Source: an uncultured Dokdonia sp.
GTDB taxonomy: Bacteria > Bacteroidota > Bacteroidia > Flavobacteriales > Flavobacteriaceae
Assembly (NCBI RefSeq): GCF_947492535.1
Contig: NZ_CANLNH010000011.1
Span: forward strand, 62,001-126,000
Reading direction: 5' to 3'
Length of the DNA stretch: 64,000 nt
Position numbers and translations under genes: made by a program. The notes below the pieces were generated by a model. The model was given only the letters and a program-made list of their open reading frames with translations, was not told the origin of the DNA and did no database searches. This document shows positions 7,260-48,248 of the stretch, in pieces (position 1 is the first letter of the stretch; every line of letters begins with the position of its first letter).

Positions 7260-8573
7260 ATGTTTTTATCTCGTTTTATAGTTCCTTTAATCGTTATTGG
7301 GATGCTGTTTCAGTCCGCTTTCGCGAAAGCGCAACACATCACAAAACCAGAGCAACAACTCATTGCCCAAGTATCTAAAAATAACCCAGAAGCCATTCAG
7401 TTTTTGGAAGACGTTGTAAATATAAATAGCGGAACCCTGAATCTAGATGGAGTTAAAGAGGTAGGGGCTGTATTTTCAGAAGCCTTTCAAAATATTGGAT
7501 TTGAATCACAATGGATCACAATGCCTTCAGAAATGAATCGTGCAGGACATTTATTTGCAACTACAAAAGGAACGAAAGGAAAACGTTTATTACTGATAGG
7601 ACACCTAGATACGGTTTTTGAAAAAGACAGCGAGTTTCAGCAATTTGAAATGGTAAATGACTCTATTGCCAAAGGTCCTGGAGCCAATGACATGAAAGGA
7701 GGAAATGTCGTGGTATTGTATGCATTAAAAGCACTATATGAATCTGGATTATTGAAAAATACGCAAATCACCGTTGCTTTTACGGGAGATGAAGAAAGCA
7801 CTGGAAAACCATTAAGCATTAGTAGAAAACCACTAATAGATGCAGCCAAGCAAAGCGATATTGCATTAGGTTTTGAAACCTCAACAGGGTTTGATAATGC
7901 GACCGTTGCTCGAAGAGGCTCTTCTAATTGGAAAGTCACGGTAACGGGAAAACGAGCACATTCTTCAGGTATTTTTAGTGAATACACAGGCGCTGGTGCA
8001 AACTTTGAGCTAGCCCGTATCTTACACCAATTCTATACCGATGTAAAAGGAGAAGAACTCTTAACTTTTAATCCTGGTATGATGTTGGGTGGCACTACTA
8101 TGGATTTACAAGCACAAGAAAGTAAAGGCGCCATTTTTGGAAAGGGAAATGTTGTAGCCCAAACAGCATATGCTCAAGGGGGATTACGATTTATCTCTGA
8201 AGATCAGAAAGAACGAGCACGAATTAAAATGCGAGAAATTGCAGCTAACAATCTCCCGAAAACAAGTGCAAAAGTGGAGTTTCAGGATAGCTACCCTGCA
8301 ATGAGACCTACTCCAGAAAATTATGAATTATTAGAAGTTTTAAGCCAAGTAAGCCAAGATTTAGGACAACCTAAAGTAACAGGATATGATCCCGGTAAAA
8401 GAGGGGCCGCAGATGTCTCTTTTGTCGCAGAATATGTTGCTTGCCTCGATGGATTAGGCACCATGGGAACGGGCGCTCATACACCTTCAGAAACCGTAAA
8501 TCTCAACACCATTGAAATGCTTACGCAACGTACTGCTATCTTAATTTATAGATTAATTAATCAACCTAGATAA
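7260..8573 (+). CDS. M20 family metallopeptidase (CPG2-like), secreted
   Basis: The product is 437 residues with a signal peptide ending AKA-Q near residue 24. Motifs of a two-zinc M20 exopeptidase are present in order: GHLDTVFE (zinc His plus catalytic Asp), GANDMKGG (bridging Asp), GDEESTG (catalytic base and zinc Glu), and GTGAHTPSETVN near the C-terminus. The inserted dimerisation domain spans roughly residues 215-330. The order resembles glutamate carboxypeptidase (CPG2), which removes C-terminal Glu from folates or peptides; the substrate here is unknown. The palindrome CGCTTTCGCGAAAGCG (7316-7331) encodes AFAKA at the signal-peptide cleavage site. Confidence 0.9.
   Translation: MFLSRFIVPLIVIGMLFQSAFAKAQHITKPEQQLIAQVSKNNPEAIQFLEDVVNINSGTLNLDGVKEVGAVFSEAFQNIGFESQWITMPSEMNRAGHLFATTKGTKGKRLLLIGHLDTVFEKDSEFQQFEMVNDSIAKGPGANDMKGGNVVVLYALKALYESGLLKNTQITVAFTGDEESTGKPLSISRKPLIDAAKQSDIALGFETSTGFDNATVARRGSSNWKVTVTGKRAHSSGIFSEYTGAGANFELARILHQFYTDVKGEELLTFNPGMMLGGTTMDLQAQESKGAIFGKGNVVAQTAYAQGGLRFISEDQKERARIKMREIAANNLPKTSAKVEFQDSYPAMRPTPENYELLEVLSQVSQDLGQPKVTGYDPGKRGAADVSFVAEYVACLDGLGTMGTGAHTPSETVNLNTIEMLTQRTAILIYRLINQPR
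7316..7331. repeat. CGCTTTCGCGAAAGCG palindrome, in CDS
   Basis: Exact 16-bp copy, read as AFAKA at residues 20-24 of the M20 peptidase, directly at the signal peptidase site. Confidence 0.95.
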
Positions 8574-43065: not shown

Positions 43066-43566
43066 TTAGTTTTTAGAAGATGAAAGTTCTTGCTTCCATC
43101 TATTTTTAATACGACTTATTTTGGTCGCAACATTGGTTTTAGTAATTCCTAAGATATCTGCAATCACCTCATAGTCTTTATCTTCTAAATAAAGAAACAT
43201 TAAGGCTTTGTCAAATTCATTAAGGCCTGCCAACAACTTTCGCAACATATCTTGCTCGTAACTTCTTTCACTAGTCTCAGAAGCTGCTGTAAACTCAAGT
43301 AATCCTGTATCTAGTCGTACAGTCTTTCCTTTTGTTTTAAACGTTTTACGATAATGTGAGATCGCTACATTCATTGAGATTCTATACAACCACGTGGTTA
43401 TTGCATAGGCGTCATTATAGGTATCTAGAGATTTCCAGATCTGGATTAAAATTTCCTGCTCTAGATCCTTTTTGTCTTCATTGTCGGCACAATACATGGT
43501 GATCACTTTATATAAAATGCCTTTATGCTTTTCAATGATATCAATAAATGTTGCTTTCTTACTCAA
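43066..43566 (-). CDS. ECF-type RNA polymerase sigma factor
   Basis: The product is 166 residues. Region 2 is at about 18-80 (MYCADNEDKKDLEQEILIQI, LDTYNDAYAITTWLYRISMN) and region 4 at about 105-160 (LAGLNEFDKALMFLYLEDKD, YEVIADILGITKTNVATKIS). It is unrelated in detail to the FecI-like factor at 23789 and is paired with a membrane protein rather than FecR. The target regulon is unknown. Confidence 0.94.
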   Translation of the reverse strand: MSKKATFIDIIEKHKGILYKVITMYCADNEDKKDLEQEILIQIWKSLDTYNDAYAITTWLYRISMNVAISHYRKTFKTKGKTVRLDTGLLEFTAASETSERSYEQDMLRKLLAGLNEFDKALMFLYLEDKDYEVIADILGITKTNVATKISRIKNRWKQELSSSKN

Positions 43567-43737: not shown

Positions 43738-43797
43738 CGAGTCTTCCCTCCTAGAAAGGCGTTATGCCGAGTTTATCGAAGTAAGAGCTAGGAAGTA
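43738..43797. repeat. degenerate REP-like unit interrupted by another repeat
   Basis: GAGTCTTCCCTCCTAGAAAGG resembles the 3' half of the array unit, but the middle contains GAGTTTATCGAAGTA, a string shared with 35842-35878. It appears to be an old unit into which another short element has entered. Confidence 0.5.
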
Positions 43798-43817
43798 AAA
43801 CTAAACATCTTCAAATC

Positions 43818-43924
43818 ACACACCCCTTACTCCCCTCTTCTTAGAGGGGAAACTGTTATGGAAAACCTTCTTATATAATTTGCGATTGAGTCTTCCCTCC
43901 TAAGAAGGAGGGCTAGGGAGGTGT
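43818..43924. repeat. REP-like array unit 1 (107 bp)
   Basis: The unit runs from ACACACCCCTTACTCCCCTC to GGGCTAGGGAGGTGT and contains two hairpins: CCCCTCT/AGAGGGG near the left end and CCCTCCT/AGGAGGG near the right end. The ends are imperfect inverted repeats of each other. Confidence 0.92.
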
Positions 43925-43953
43925 TAGAAAAATTATTCTTTCAAACTCAAATC

Positions 43954-44060
43954 ACACATCCCTTACTCCCCTCTTCTTAGAGGGGAAACTGTTATGGAAA
44001 ACTTTCTTATATAGTTTGCATCTGAGTCTTCCCTCCTAAGAAGGAGGGCTAGGGAGGTGT
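43954..44060. repeat. REP-like array unit 2 (107 bp)
   Basis: Same unit, same orientation, 136 bases downstream of unit 1 (29-base spacer). It ends 5 bases from the stop codon of the DUF559 gene. Confidence 0.92.
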
Positions 44061-44065
44061 TTTCA

Positions 44066-44461
44066 TTAAGAATAATCCTCAATAGGAGGTAACCCATTTT
44101 CTTCAAATCTTACTACATAATCTTCTATAGCTCGATATACATTTTCAAAATCATTCATAATCTGATCATCAGAAAATCGAAGAACACGTATTTCTAATTC
44201 ATTAAATCGTTTTGTTTTCCTAACATCTTTTTTCCAAACCTCTTGAATCTCATGAGAGTATCCATCACATTCTATCACAAGTTGTAGTTTATTACAGAAA
44301 AAGTCTGCTATATATTCATCAATCGGTTTCTGTCTATGAAAATCATATCCATACAATTGTTTCCTTTTCAAACATTGCCACATCTTAATCTCAGATTTTG
44401 TCGCATTATTTCTCAATTGACGAGCAAATTCTGTGAGTTTTGGATTGTACTTTATGATCAT
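44066..44461 (-). CDS. single-domain DUF559 endonuclease-like protein inside the repeat array
   Basis: The product is 131 residues. It matches the DUF559 family of PD-(D/E)XK nuclease-fold proteins related to Vsr: FARQLRNNATKSEIKMWQCL at the N-terminus, then HRQKPIDEYIADFFCNKLQL and VIECDGYSHEIQEVWKKD. Likely metal and catalytic residues are Asp53, Glu64 and Asp66, with Glu24 as a conserved acid. It could nick or cut DNA. The gene lies between four full REP-like units, two on each side, 5 and 20 bases from the nearest ones. This arrangement suggests that the protein acts on or spreads the repeats; that is inference. Confidence 0.9.
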   Translation of the reverse strand: MIIKYNPKLTEFARQLRNNATKSEIKMWQCLKRKQLYGYDFHRQKPIDEYIADFFCNKLQLVIECDGYSHEIQEVWKKDVRKTKRFNELEIRVLRFSDDQIMNDFENVYRAIEDYVVRFEENGLPPIEDYS

Positions 44462-44481
44462 AGTTAAATATATACAATTTT

Positions 44482-44588
44482 ACACACCCCTTACGCCCCT
44501 CTTCTTAGAGGGGAAACTGTTATGGAAAACCTTCTTATATAATTTGCGTCTGAGTCTTCCCTCCAAAGAAGGAGGGCTAGGGAGGTGT
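44482..44588. repeat. REP-like array unit 3 (107 bp)
   Basis: Same unit and orientation as units 1 and 2, starting 20 bases upstream of the DUF559 start codon. Confidence 0.92.
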
Positions 44589-44616
44589 TAACTATAACAA
44601 TGTTATTCTTCAAATC

Positions 44617-44723
44617 ACACACCCCTTACTCCCCTCTTCCTAGAGGGGAAACCGTTATGAAAAACCTTCTTATATAGTTTGCGTCTGAGTCTTCTCTCCT
44701 AAGAAGGAGGGCTAGGGAGGTGT
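44617..44723. repeat. REP-like array unit 4 (107 bp)
   Basis: Same unit, 135 bases after unit 3. The spacer (ATTCTTCAAATC) resembles the spacers after units 1 and 4. Confidence 0.92.
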
Positions 44724-44752
44724 AAAAAAATTATTTTTTTCAAACTCAAATG

Positions 44753-44790
44753 ACACACCCCTAACCCCTCTTCCTAGATGGGAATACTCT
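44753..44790. repeat. REP-like array unit 5, truncated
   Basis: Starts as the other units (ACACACCCCTAACCCCTC), 136 bases after unit 4, but loses similarity after the first hairpin. Confidence 0.7.
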
Positions 44791-44885: not shown

Positions 44886-47800
44886 GTGAGTAAAACTACA
44901 CTCTCGCAACACCTTGCACAGTCTCAGCAACTCCTGAAATTGCAGGATGCTATTGCCCAAAATCATCGAAACATACAAGCTAAAGGCCTTATAGGCTCTT
45001 CATTATCTTATACCATAAGTACTGTGTATGAGCAGATAGAACGTCCTATTCTTCTTATTTTGAATGATAAAGAAGAGGCCGCATATTACCTCAATGATCT
45101 AGAGCAATTACGTAAAGAAGTCAATGTATTATTCTACCCAGGGAGTTATAGAAGACCGTATCAAATAGAAGAGACTGATAATGCCAATGTACTCTTACGT
45201 GCTGAAGTATTGAATCGGATTAATAGCCGGAAGAAATCGGCGTTAATTGTGACGTATCCAGATGCGTTGTTTGAAAAAGTAGTGACGCGTCGCGAATTAG
45301 ATAGGCAGACGTTAAAAGTAAGTGTAAACGATAAACTCTCTATCGATTTTATCAATGAGATGCTTTTTGAGTATCACTTTAAGCGTGTCGATTTTGTCAC
45401 AGAACCGGGTGAATTTTCGGTACGCGGGGGAATTGTAGATGTTTTTTCATTTAGTCATGATGAACCCTATCGTATCGAGTTTTTTGGAGATGAAGTAGAC
45501 AGCATCCGTACGTTTGATGTAGAGACACAGCTCTCATCAGAGCAACTCAAGAAAATCTCGATCATGCCTAATGTAGAAAATAAGGCATTAGAAGAAAAAC
45601 GAGATACCTTCCTTAAATACATTGCAAATAACACCTTAGTATTCATCAAAAATCGATCACTATTTTATGATCGGATTGATAAAAATTTCGCGAAAGCAGA
45701 GGAAGCCTTTACAAAGTTAGATTCAGAAGTAAAACGTAGTACCCCAAGTGAATTATTCTGCAAAGGAACCCTTTTAAAATCTGAACTAGAAGGATTCCAA
45801 ACGATAGATATTAGCGCTTCTGTTCCTGATGTGAAGATCAATACATTGGTGGCATTTAATCAGCAACCACAACCGTCATTTAATAAGCAATTTGATCTAC
45901 TCATTCAAAACCTGAATGACAACTATACTGCAGGGTACAAAAATTATATTTCCTGTGTCAGTGAGCAACAGGCCAAGCGTTTTCGGGATATTTTTGAGGA
46001 TGCACAAACCGATGTGGCTCCTTATGAAACGGTAGTGATTTCCTTATATCAAGGATTTATAGATGACGATCTTAAAATAGCGCTCTACACAGATCATCAG
46101 ATTTTTGAACGGTATCATAAGTTCAATCTTAAAAATGGATATGCTAAGAAGCAAGCCATTACGCTTAAGGAACTCACCAATCTTAAAGTAGGTGATTATG
46201 TGACGCATATTGATCATGGCATTGGGAAGTTTGGCGGACTTCAAAAAATAGATGTAGAAGGTAAAAAACAAGAAGCCATTAAGTTGGTGTATGGAGAGCG
46301 AGATATTTTATATTTAAGTATCCATTCATTACATAAAATCACCAAGTTCACGGGAAAAGACGGAAAAGCGCCTCAAATCTATAAACTAGGAAGTCAGGCG
46401 TGGAAAAAGCTTAAAGCGAAAACAAAATCACGTGTTAAGCACATTGCTTTTAACCTCATCAAGCTCTATGCAAAACGTAGATTGCAAAAGGGGTTTGCTT
46501 TTGGACCAGACACCCATATGCAGCACGAACTTGAAGCGAGTTTTATTTATGAAGATACTCCTGATCAAAGTACCGCTACCGAAGCTGTAAAGCGCGATAT
46601 GGAGAGCGAGCGTCCTATGGATAGACTTGTGTGTGGAGATGTAGGGTTTGGAAAAACCGAAGTTGCCATACGAGCCGCTTTTAAAGCAGTAGACAATGGA
46701 AAACAAGTCGCTATCTTAGTACCTACTACCATTCTTGCCTTCCAACATGCAAAGACTTTTAGAGAACGTTTAAAGGACTTTCCAGTTCGTATCGAGTATT
46801 TGAATCGCTTCCGTACAGCAAAACAAAAGCGAGAAGTATTAGAAGGGTTAACGAGTGGCGCGGTAGATATTGTGATTGGCACCCACCAACTCACCAGTAA
46901 AAATGTACAGTTCAAAGACCTAGGACTCCTCGTCATTGATGAGGAGCAAAAATTTGGAGTTGCTGTAAAAGACAAACTAAAAACCATTAGTGAAAACGTA
47001 GACACACTCACACTTACGGCAACACCTATCCCGAGAACATTACAATTTAGTCTAATGGCAGCGCGTGATTTAAGCACCATTACGACACCACCACCTAACC
47101 GTTATCCTATAGAAAGTAGTGTAATTCGGTTTTCTGAAGAAGCCATACGAGATGCGGTAAGTTATGAGATTCAACGTGGTGGACAGGTATTTTTCATTCA
47201 CAATCGTATTGAAAATATCAAGGAAGTTGCAGGACTCGTTCAACGATTAGTCCCTGATGCAAAAGTGGCCGTAGGACACGGGCAAATGGAAGGGAAGAAA
47301 CTCGAAGGGCTTATGCTTGCGTTTATGACAGGAGAGTTTGATGTTTTGGTGTCTACTACCATTGTAGAAAGCGGACTTGACGTGCCAAATGCGAATACGA
47401 TTTTTATTAATAATGCTAATAATTTTGGCCTTTCAGATCTTCACCAAATGCGAGGTCGTGTAGGAAGAAGTAACAAAAAAGCGTTTTGTTATTTTATCAC
47501 TCCGCCGTATAGTGCCATGACAGATGATGCTCGTAAACGTATTTCTGCATTAGAACAATTCTCAGTACTCGGTAGTGGATTTAATATTGCCATGAAAGAT
47601 CTTGAGATACGTGGTGCCGGAGATTTATTAGGTGGAGAACAAAGCGGTTTTATTAACGAAATAGGTTTTGACACGTATCAGAAAATCTTAAATGAGGCCA
47701 TCGAAGAACTCAAGGAAAATGAGTTTAAAGAATTGTATGAGGAGGAAAACGCTTTCGCGAAAGCGGATAAAGAGTATGTAAAAGACACTGTGATTGACAC

Positions 47801-48248
47801 CGATTTTAGTTTACTCTTTCCAGATGATTATGTCAATAATATCTCTGAACGTTTGAACCTTTACACACAGCTGAACGAAACTAAAAACGAAACAGAACTT
47901 GCTACTTTTGAAGCAATACTTATAGATCGTTTCGGCCCTTTACCTGATGAAGCAAAAGACTTATTAAATTCTGTACGTATTAAATGGATTGCAACCAAAA
48001 TAGGGTTAGAGAAAGTTGTTATGAAAAATGATAAATTTATTGGATTCTTTATCTCTGATCAGGAGTCAGAATTTTATCAAAGTAATGCTTTTACGCGTGT
48101 ACTCCAATTTGTACAAGAATATACATATCGTGTGAAATTAGAAGAAAAGAAAACACGTAATGGCTCTCGATTACTACTCAAGTTTGGGGATGCTACTTCT
48201 ATTCAAAGTGTGTATGAAATTTTACAGCCTTTCCTAAATAAAAAGTAA
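44886..48248 (+). CDS. mfd: transcription-repair coupling factor Mfd
   Basis: The product is 1120 residues starting at GTG. It frees RNA polymerase stalled at lesions and recruits UvrA. In order: UvrB-homology module (about 1-330), RNA-polymerase-interacting domain (about 440-500, LKVGDYVTHIDHGIGKFGGL), RecG-like helicase with Walker A CGDVGFGKTEVAIRAAF, DEEQ box VIDEEQKFGV, motif III LTLTATPIPRTL, and motif VI QMRGRVGRSNKKAFCYF, then a C-terminal TRCF domain. Complete. The palindrome at 47750-47765 encodes AFAKA (956-960) in the linker after the helicase. Confidence 0.97.
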   Translation: MSKTTLSQHLAQSQQLLKLQDAIAQNHRNIQAKGLIGSSLSYTISTVYEQIERPILLILNDKEEAAYYLNDLEQLRKEVNVLFYPGSYRRPYQIEETDNANVLLRAEVLNRINSRKKSALIVTYPDALFEKVVTRRELDRQTLKVSVNDKLSIDFINEMLFEYHFKRVDFVTEPGEFSVRGGIVDVFSFSHDEPYRIEFFGDEVDSIRTFDVETQLSSEQLKKISIMPNVENKALEEKRDTFLKYIANNTLVFIKNRSLFYDRIDKNFAKAEEAFTKLDSEVKRSTPSELFCKGTLLKSELEGFQTIDISASVPDVKINTLVAFNQQPQPSFNKQFDLLIQNLNDNYTAGYKNYISCVSEQQAKRFRDIFEDAQTDVAPYETVVISLYQGFIDDDLKIALYTDHQIFERYHKFNLKNGYAKKQAITLKELTNLKVGDYVTHIDHGIGKFGGLQKIDVEGKKQEAIKLVYGERDILYLSIHSLHKITKFTGKDGKAPQIYKLGSQAWKKLKAKTKSRVKHIAFNLIKLYAKRRLQKGFAFGPDTHMQHELEASFIYEDTPDQSTATEAVKRDMESERPMDRLVCGDVGFGKTEVAIRAAFKAVDNGKQVAILVPTTILAFQHAKTFRERLKDFPVRIEYLNRFRTAKQKREVLEGLTSGAVDIVIGTHQLTSKNVQFKDLGLLVIDEEQKFGVAVKDKLKTISENVDTLTLTATPIPRTLQFSLMAARDLSTITTPPPNRYPIESSVIRFSEEAIRDAVSYEIQRGGQVFFIHNRIENIKEVAGLVQRLVPDAKVAVGHGQMEGKKLEGLMLAFMTGEFDVLVSTTIVESGLDVPNANTIFINNANNFGLSDLHQMRGRVGRSNKKAFCYFITPPYSAMTDDARKRISALEQFSVLGSGFNIAMKDLEIRGAGDLLGGEQSGFINEIGFDTYQKILNEAIEELKENEFKELYEEENAFAKADKEYVKDTVIDTDFSLLFPDDYVNNISERLNLYTQLNETKNETELATFEAILIDRFGPLPDEAKDLLNSVRIKWIATKIGLEKVVMKNDKFIGFFISDQESEFYQSNAFTRVLQFVQEYTYRVKLEEKKTRNGSRLLLKFGDATSIQSVYEILQPFLNKK
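47750..47765. repeat. CGCTTTCGCGAAAGCG palindrome, in CDS
   Basis: Exact 16-bp copy in mfd, read as AFAKA (residues 956-960), in an acidic linker. Confidence 0.95.

Follow-up and report, generated by a model that had tools for sequence, protein, structure and literature searches.

A DUF559 nuclease gene and its bordering palindromes as a probable homing-type selfish element in Dokdonia

Introduction

Why does a nuclease gene lie inside an array of palindromic repeats, and does it spread the repeats or travel between them? The question is raised by a locus in the 64-kb window (the whole stretch of Dokdonia DNA analysed here), in which a gene for a DUF559 protein, a member of a nuclease family filed under unknown function, is flanked on both sides by 107-bp units. 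The initial annotation of the locus proposed an independent counterpart of the RAYT/REP system. The anatomy behind that proposal is well supported, but the best evidence obtained here is for a gene that moves with its own ends, not for an enzyme that spreads units. Probably the DUF559 gene and its bordering palindromes form a single selfish element of the homing type, delimited by the palindromes, and the 107-bp units would be its non-autonomous relatives.

Results

The array and its surroundings

Self-comparison of the window places four 107-bp units on one strand (93–96% identical over 107 nt; start-to-start spacing of 136, 528 and 135 bp), exactly where the initial annotation had put them (Table 1). 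Its description of two hairpins per unit (CCCCTC..GAGGGG and CCCTCC..GGAGGG) and near-inverted ends is borne out, as are its two degraded pieces, a left half downstream of unit 4 and part of a right half (43739–43759) upstream of unit 1. Each unit consists of a left half, in which the tail ACACACCCCTTACT is followed by the CCCCTC..GAGGGG hairpin, a core of ~33 bp, and a right half, in which the CCCTCC..GGAGGG hairpin is followed by the tail CTAGGGAGGTGT. Folded as RNA, four of five strands beat their shuffles with z of -3.2 to -4.5 (both strands of unit 1, and units 2 and 3), and unit 4 does so weakly (z -1.5). The palindromes account for this strand folding, so it need not point to an RNA gene. 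No Rfam family reaches its gathering score in the whole window, and no intron was found there. Some half-unit hairpin loops (window 43759–43790, and loci L314, L325 and L010) hold different sequence of the TGCCGAGTTTATCGAAGTAAG type, as if one repeat had been inserted into another.

Table 1. Features of the array and of its neighbours in the window
Feature	Position	Strand	Basis or remark
Gene for a sigma-70 family factor, bordering the variable locus on the left	43066..43566	-	
Degraded right half-unit (GAGTCTTCCCTCCTAGAAAGG...), hairpin loop interrupted by other sequence	43739..43798	+	Loop interruption and right boundary by eye
Unit 1: left half (tail and hairpin), core, right half (hairpin and tail)	43818..43924	+	Self-comparison, folding
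Unit 2	43954..44060	+	Self-comparison, folding
Right half of unit 2 (palindromic end on the DUF559 stop side)	44024..44060	+	Also next to the gene in Dokdonia pacifica (L009)
DUF559 (PF04480) nuclease gene, 131 aa, with the conserved residues of the active site	44066..44461	-	Profile match, fold
Left half of unit 3 (palindromic end on the DUF559 start side)	44482..44518	+	
Unit 3	44482..44588	+	Self-comparison, folding
Unit 4	44617..44723	+	Self-comparison, folding
Degraded left half-unit	44753..44784	+	Self-comparison
mfd (transcription-repair coupling factor), bordering the variable locus on the right	44886..48248	+	

The locus between the sigma factor gene and mfd is variable, because its content differs among relatives. 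In D. pacifica it contains the gene together with the same right half, and the units are fewer; in another genome of the genus (G069) the sigma and mfd genes are adjacent and units are absent; in several others a different gene precedes mfd (for minus-strand loci the wrong side was read). A 14-bp palindrome, GCTTTCGCGAAAGC, has 10 exact copies in the window, where none is expected (positions 7317, 12577, 16982, 20043, 28607, 33389, 38641, 40722, 44834 and 47751), and has the look of a highly iterated palindrome. One of the copies is adjacent to the array; the palindrome's core is also found ahead of mfd in several other genomes of the genus.

The nuclease

The gene between units 2 and 3, 5 and 20 bases away from them, is intact, as first annotated, and its product matches PF04480 (E 1.1e-29); PF18741 is matched below the cut-off and no other profile is matched. 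Asp53, Glu64 and Asp66, the residues singled out at the outset, are present, and each is at least 90% conserved among 50 sequences. Glu24, His70 and Asp79 are likewise at least 90% conserved in that set, and Trp28, Gln44 and Gly67 are invariant. The protein is 94% identical to one of D. pacifica, which suggests a Dokdonia close to that species. The genome of the window holds five further DUF559 genes that are not of the window type (32–39% identical), and where these have clear hairpin arms, the arms differ by eye from those in the window.

The predicted fold (mean pLDDT 85.6) is most similar among solved folds to 3hrl, a putative endonuclease with its own match to the DUF559 profile. Second comes the homing endonuclease I-Bth0305I, represented by its catalytic domain (3r3p; Foldseek E 1.4e-4, TM 0.60/0.79), with a sequence profile match at E 2.6e-8. 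One DUF559 gene has already been assigned to the EDxHD group in a 2022 paper (PMC9403480). Across the DUF559 alignment the E, D, E-x-D, H and D columns are conserved. All 49 rows from genes embedded in host genes have the seven active-site columns intact, as do, per column, at least 138 of the 139–142 other rows scored; the rows are not all distinct loci, the profile search favours intact copies, and a degenerate leuS insert (L110) lies outside the set. L026 was dropped from the protein alignments on account of stops.

Hairpins beside DUF559 genes

DUF559 is present in at least 138 of the 247 Bacteroidota genomes searched. The survey set comprised 155 loci, 154 of them with a DUF559 hit, and 153 distinct genes (152 from Bacteroidota and one from Neomarinimicrobiota). 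L028, which has no DUF559 hit, was excluded from the hairpin counts; duplicate fetches were removed by an identical 100-nt stretch, whereby L256 was also lost; and the degenerate leuS insert stands outside the 153 genes. Strong matches are over-represented, because 80 regions were picked roughly in E-value order among the matches listed, with a few left out. A hairpin was counted when it was perfect, with a stem of at least 6, a loop of 3–10, a GC content of at least 60% and an arm of 80% pyrimidine or purine, and when it lay within ~290 bp of the domain. Control windows were of the same size and came from the same loci, starting 1.2–2.7 kb away.

By this rule a GC-rich, pyrimidine-armed hairpin lies near 134 of the 153 genes, compared with 24 of 803 control windows. 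The initial annotation had expected such an association and had named DUF559 genes mostly devoid of units as the result that would speak against it; these counts clearly show the reverse. Hairpins are found upstream of 111 genes, downstream of 110 and on both sides of 87, and 19 genes have none. When one gene is kept per 60%-identity cluster (drawn from 177 genes, which include more from Dokdonia), the counts are 57 of 69 and, for controls, 17 of 391. The distance profile falls to background within ~500 bp. An exact inverted repeat of at least 12 nt spans the gene in 36% of clusters, as opposed to 1.6% with swapped flanks.

Outside Bacteroidota, 12 of 12 plasmid-borne DUF559 genes (cyanobacteria six, alphaproteobacteria four, one gammaproteobacterium and one Deinococcus; 12 of 37 records) have a hairpin, compared with 7 of 72 distal windows from the same loci. 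Among GIY-YIG genes of the same phylum as the main survey, taken as a control, the count is 6 of 30, or 4 of 26 with complete flanks. As 6 of 30 exceeds the 3% background, some of the hairpin enrichment is not specific to DUF559. The GIY-YIG genes with pyrimidine-armed hairpins are L276, L288, L290, L291, L296 and L301. In three loci (L046, L052 and L054) a DUF559-like domain lies at, or close to, an end of a large protein, and there the hairpin is absent.

The hairpin tails do not follow one pattern. Among genes with callable tails, 57 of the 84 free-standing ones have tails directed at the gene, which is also the arrangement in the window, and 24 of the 37 embedded ones have them directed away from it, although the calls are noisy and unreliable (21 of 41 distal hairpins also score a tail). 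Since the two groups point opposite ways, a single element architecture does not fit all cases, and a tail-direction rule for the elements was tried and given up as noisy. In L027, from Neomarinimicrobiota, the DUF559 gene lies between repeats of the ACACCTCCCTC..GAGGAG kind, and stand-alone DUF559 elements are found within suf clusters of two phyla, between sufB and sufC in L272 and, in L036, between genes read from its flanks as sufS and sufE.

The palindromic ends track the enzyme. Sharing of 7-mers between the hairpin regions of non-homologous loci is ~0.05 below 50% protein identity, 0.12 at 60–70% and 0.24 at 70–80%; it falls to 0.14 in the 23 pairs above 80%, of which nearly all listed involve L010 or L024, two loci with hairpin loops that, judged by eye, are altered. 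The Mantel correlation between palindrome and enzyme is 0.235 (largest of 500 permutations, 0.052), and 0.201 when the window clade is removed (permutation maximum 0.077).

Residence in host genes

Of the 153 domains, 42 lie in stop-to-stop ORFs of at least 250 residues, three of which are the large-protein architectures mentioned above. Among the hosts named by Pfam, run on 26 of the 42 ORFs, the domain lies inside leucyl-tRNA synthetase (LeuRS), RecG, methionine synthase MetH, chorismate synthase (aroC), methylmalonyl-CoA mutase, UvrD-like helicases, HsdR, HsdM, Type ISP and Eco57I/TaqI-type enzymes, and at an end of HemD, HemF, RNase H, a PurL-type amidotransferase and N-formylglutamate amidohydrolase. 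LeuRS is occupied at two sites, one in the editing-domain loop before VFTTRPDT and the other before MPGWAGSS. The reading frames run through the insertions, no intein domain was found at E 1e-5 in the 26 host ORFs scanned, and the palindromes are translated, as judged by eye, as linkers rich in Pro, Ser, Gly and Glu. Embedded copies have dN/dS of 0.11–0.16 in 4 of 12 pairs, namely those with dS below 1.4.

The LeuRS editing loop also holds other peptides, such as VIASEAKQS and DVTSSAVET (L088, L102, L103, L226, L232 and L237). These short peptides look palindrome-derived, so the loop may be a landing hotspot.

Empty sites and movement

A comparison of filled and empty sites, suggested in the initial annotation, could be made for leuS and recG, where the same site is filled in some genomes and empty in others. 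Among 30 leuS loci of the family, fetched from 45 genomes, the editing loop carries the insert in three, including the degenerate L110, and is empty in 27; within the genus, 4 of 15 readable loci are filled, 11 are empty and one more is unreadable. The second LeuRS site is empty in all eight readable loci of the family's 30. In recG, the insert is present in 1 of 25 readable family loci, with 24 empty and five unreadable, and three further recG loci, chosen for their insert, carry it at the same place.

One of these insertions has moved recently. The leuS insert in the genome of the window (G000) is 417 bp long (CCCCCTAATCCCCCAAAGGGGG ... CCCCCTTCGGGGGCTAGGGGG), replaces 24 nt and encodes the nuclease alone. 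It is identical at 411 of 417 positions (98.6%, six differences) to the insert of another Dokdonia genome, G076, with leuS flanks that are only 86.3% (647/750) and 85.5% (767/897) identical. The jump in identity sits at the palindromes, to within ~10 bp. Synonymous divergence is 0.047 for the insert, compared with 0.84 and 0.78 for leuS. A third genome, G061, is closer to G000 in leuS (692/750, 92.3%; 790/876, 90.2%) and has an empty site. A nearly identical insert between diverged flanks, with the closer relative empty, means that the insert has moved independently of its host gene. Textbook homing leaves a long co-conversion tract beside the insert; no long tract is seen beside the insert of this pair. 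Inspection by eye, made at the leuS site alone, revealed no target-site duplication.

This pair is the only clear recent move found. For most of the remaining orthologous DUF559 copies in the genus, divergence is similar to that of the flanks, so that they look vertically inherited by this measure. A general claim that inserts are younger than their flanks was considered and fails, being clear only in the leuS pair. In G191, two copies at different loci share 490 bp, a stretch that begins ~25 bp beyond the upstream hairpin and extends through the downstream hairpin, and their flanks also share some dispersed repeats. The candidate pair L156/L170 was dismissed as copies at two loci, given that their outer flanks are homologous and the two represent one orthologous locus. 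At another orthologous locus (L041/L044), the whole DUF559 element is inverted relative to the flank, which suggests recombination between its inverted palindromes.

Copies of units and palindromes

The genome-wide search for the unit that had been suggested at the outset gives 30 matches in the 4.86-Mb genome of the window. Four of these are the array and most others are half-units. In 20 fetched regions the half-units occur singly or as left/right pairs at varied spacing, and the matches are intergenic except for two in mechanically called ORFs. The initial annotation had held that units elsewhere without a link to DUF559 genes would count against it, and in part this is what is found: G072 (88% complete) and G073 (99% complete) have 17 and 14 unit matches, respectively, and in neither was a DUF559 gene of the window type found.

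A pattern for the leuS-type palindrome gives 25 sites in 6 of 18 Dokdonia genomes, and the reversed pattern, used as a control, gives none in the 18. The leuS-embedded DUF559 gene is found in five Dokdonia genomes (G000, G066, G074, G076 and, by its flank, G070), and four of the five have the pattern. The sites in G066 and G070 coincide with the ends of the insert itself; G072 and G073 each have seven sites, with no leuS-embedded copy found in either. The co-occurrence of palindrome and embedded gene across the genus is suggestive only.

Discussion

A proposed palindrome-bounded element

The features described above fit an element with tailed GC-rich hairpins as its termini and a Vsr-like, EDxHD nuclease with a homing endonuclease fold as its cargo. 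In the mechanism that we propose, the nuclease would cut a target, which might be either an empty site in a host gene or a palindromic unit without the gene, and repair from an element-bearing copy would then install the gene together with its palindromic ends. Because these ends read through as short linkers, such an element could sit in frame in host proteins without splicing. The nuclease may also move the units: the dispersed half-units and the 107-bp units would be its shorter, non-autonomous relatives built of the same ends, in the way that REP doublets accompany RAYT genes. The association, the ends that follow the enzyme, the in-frame residence at fixed sites, the boundaries at the palindromes, one recent move and the conserved active site are direct observations; the break and the movement are attributed to the nuclease by inference.

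Weighing most against this reading are the units present in G072 and G073, where no window-type DUF559 was found, the fact that only one recent move is clear, and tails that are oriented in two opposite ways. The first of these also bears on the closest alternative, a RAYT-like mobiliser that nicks hairpins in trans and spreads the 107-bp units, its own gene being just one more unit. A gene bordered by inverted palindromes as RAYT genes are, half-units and doublets dispersed in the genome, a palindrome sequence that follows the enzyme, and a leuS-type palindrome found in six Dokdonia genomes, four of them with the embedded gene, and never in the reversed form would all suit such an enzyme. Yet units abound in those two relatives, which also have leuS-type sites with no embedded copy found, and the leuS-type hits in G066 and G070 are simply the ends of the insert, so that we regard this alternative as rather unlikely.

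It is improbable that the palindromes owe their spread to a different enzyme, such as an IS200/IS605 or RAYT transposase encoded elsewhere in the genome, with DUF559 landing in them or being carried along. Such an enzyme would suit the excess of one palindrome family over all DUF559 genes in the genome of the window (30 versus 6) and the peptides, seemingly from other palindromes, in the same leuS loop, but the association holds in five phyla with different palindromes, and the relatedness of the DUF559 proteins is mirrored in the palindrome families, a pattern not required of a passenger. The least probable explanation, to which we give very little credence, is a domesticated host function, i.e. 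a Vsr-like repair or anti-recombination nuclease that recognises hairpins and has been fused to host enzymes for use. A repair role has been proposed for a Vsr-like DUF559 protein of Caulobacter (PMC12907096), and the embedded copies are under purifying selection; against domestication stand the patchy presence at the same leuS and recG sites, the lack of relationship among the host genes and, in one pair, an insert far younger than its host gene.

The homing-type element is the preferred reading. Controlled comparisons tie DUF559 to GC-rich palindromes, and one copy, bounded by palindromes, has entered an essential gene. Should the reading hold, DUF559 gains a role and REP-like systems gain an enzyme class, in-frame selfish elements exist without splicing, and the DUF559 "domains" of LeuRS, RecG, MetH or restriction enzymes may be parasites and not functional parts. 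Whether the single-domain DUF559 proteins and their cognate tailed palindromes amount to a large cross-phylum class of mobile elements is an evenly balanced question. Members of such a class would enter essential genes in frame and stay translated and unspliced, and would also be the source of many GC-rich REP-like palindromes in Bacteroidota, Cyanobacteriota and other phyla.

Comparison with known systems

No description of the DUF559–palindrome combination was found in the literature searched, in which subscription papers were mostly not included, so priority is not proven. The system most similar in layout is RAYT/TnpA-REP (REP, BIME and REPIN), where, as described in PMC2817692, a small nuclease gene lies between inverted palindromes, sometimes beside an array of them, doublets are dispersed between genes, and the palindrome sequence follows the enzyme. 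Unlike RAYT, a Y1-HUH transposase, the enzyme here belongs to PF04480 (PD-(D/E)XK/Vsr-like), and copies sit in frame inside essential genes. RAYT/REP systems also carry GTAG/CGTC tags (PMC3733652). GTAG is absent from both strands of all four units, and CGTC occurs only in units 3 and 4, at unit position 66, in the core. With an unrelated enzyme and without the conserved GTAG/CGTC tag, the DUF559 system is not a member of the RAYT/REP group.

Vsr-like mismatch-repair endonucleases share the domain family; Caulobacter VsrA, for which the repair role was proposed, is a Vsr-like DUF559 protein linked to a cytosine methyltransferase (PMC12907096), whereas the window gene has no cytosine methyltransferase among the five neighbours scanned with Pfam and its setting is that of a mobile element. 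With the EDxHD homing endonucleases, represented by I-Bth0305I, DUF559 has in common the fold, the sequence profile, presence and absence at the same site and, in one pair, an insert younger than the host gene. It differs from I-Bth0305I in being a single-domain protein without the extra DNA-binding regions of that enzyme (PMC3943268), and the DUF559 element differs from this group in being bounded by tailed palindromes and translated within the host protein, with no intein found. The in-frame residence of palindromic sequence in unrelated genes is shared with the Rickettsia palindromic elements, but these are ~150 bp long and encode a short peptide (PMC10969869), while the DUF559 element carries a nuclease.
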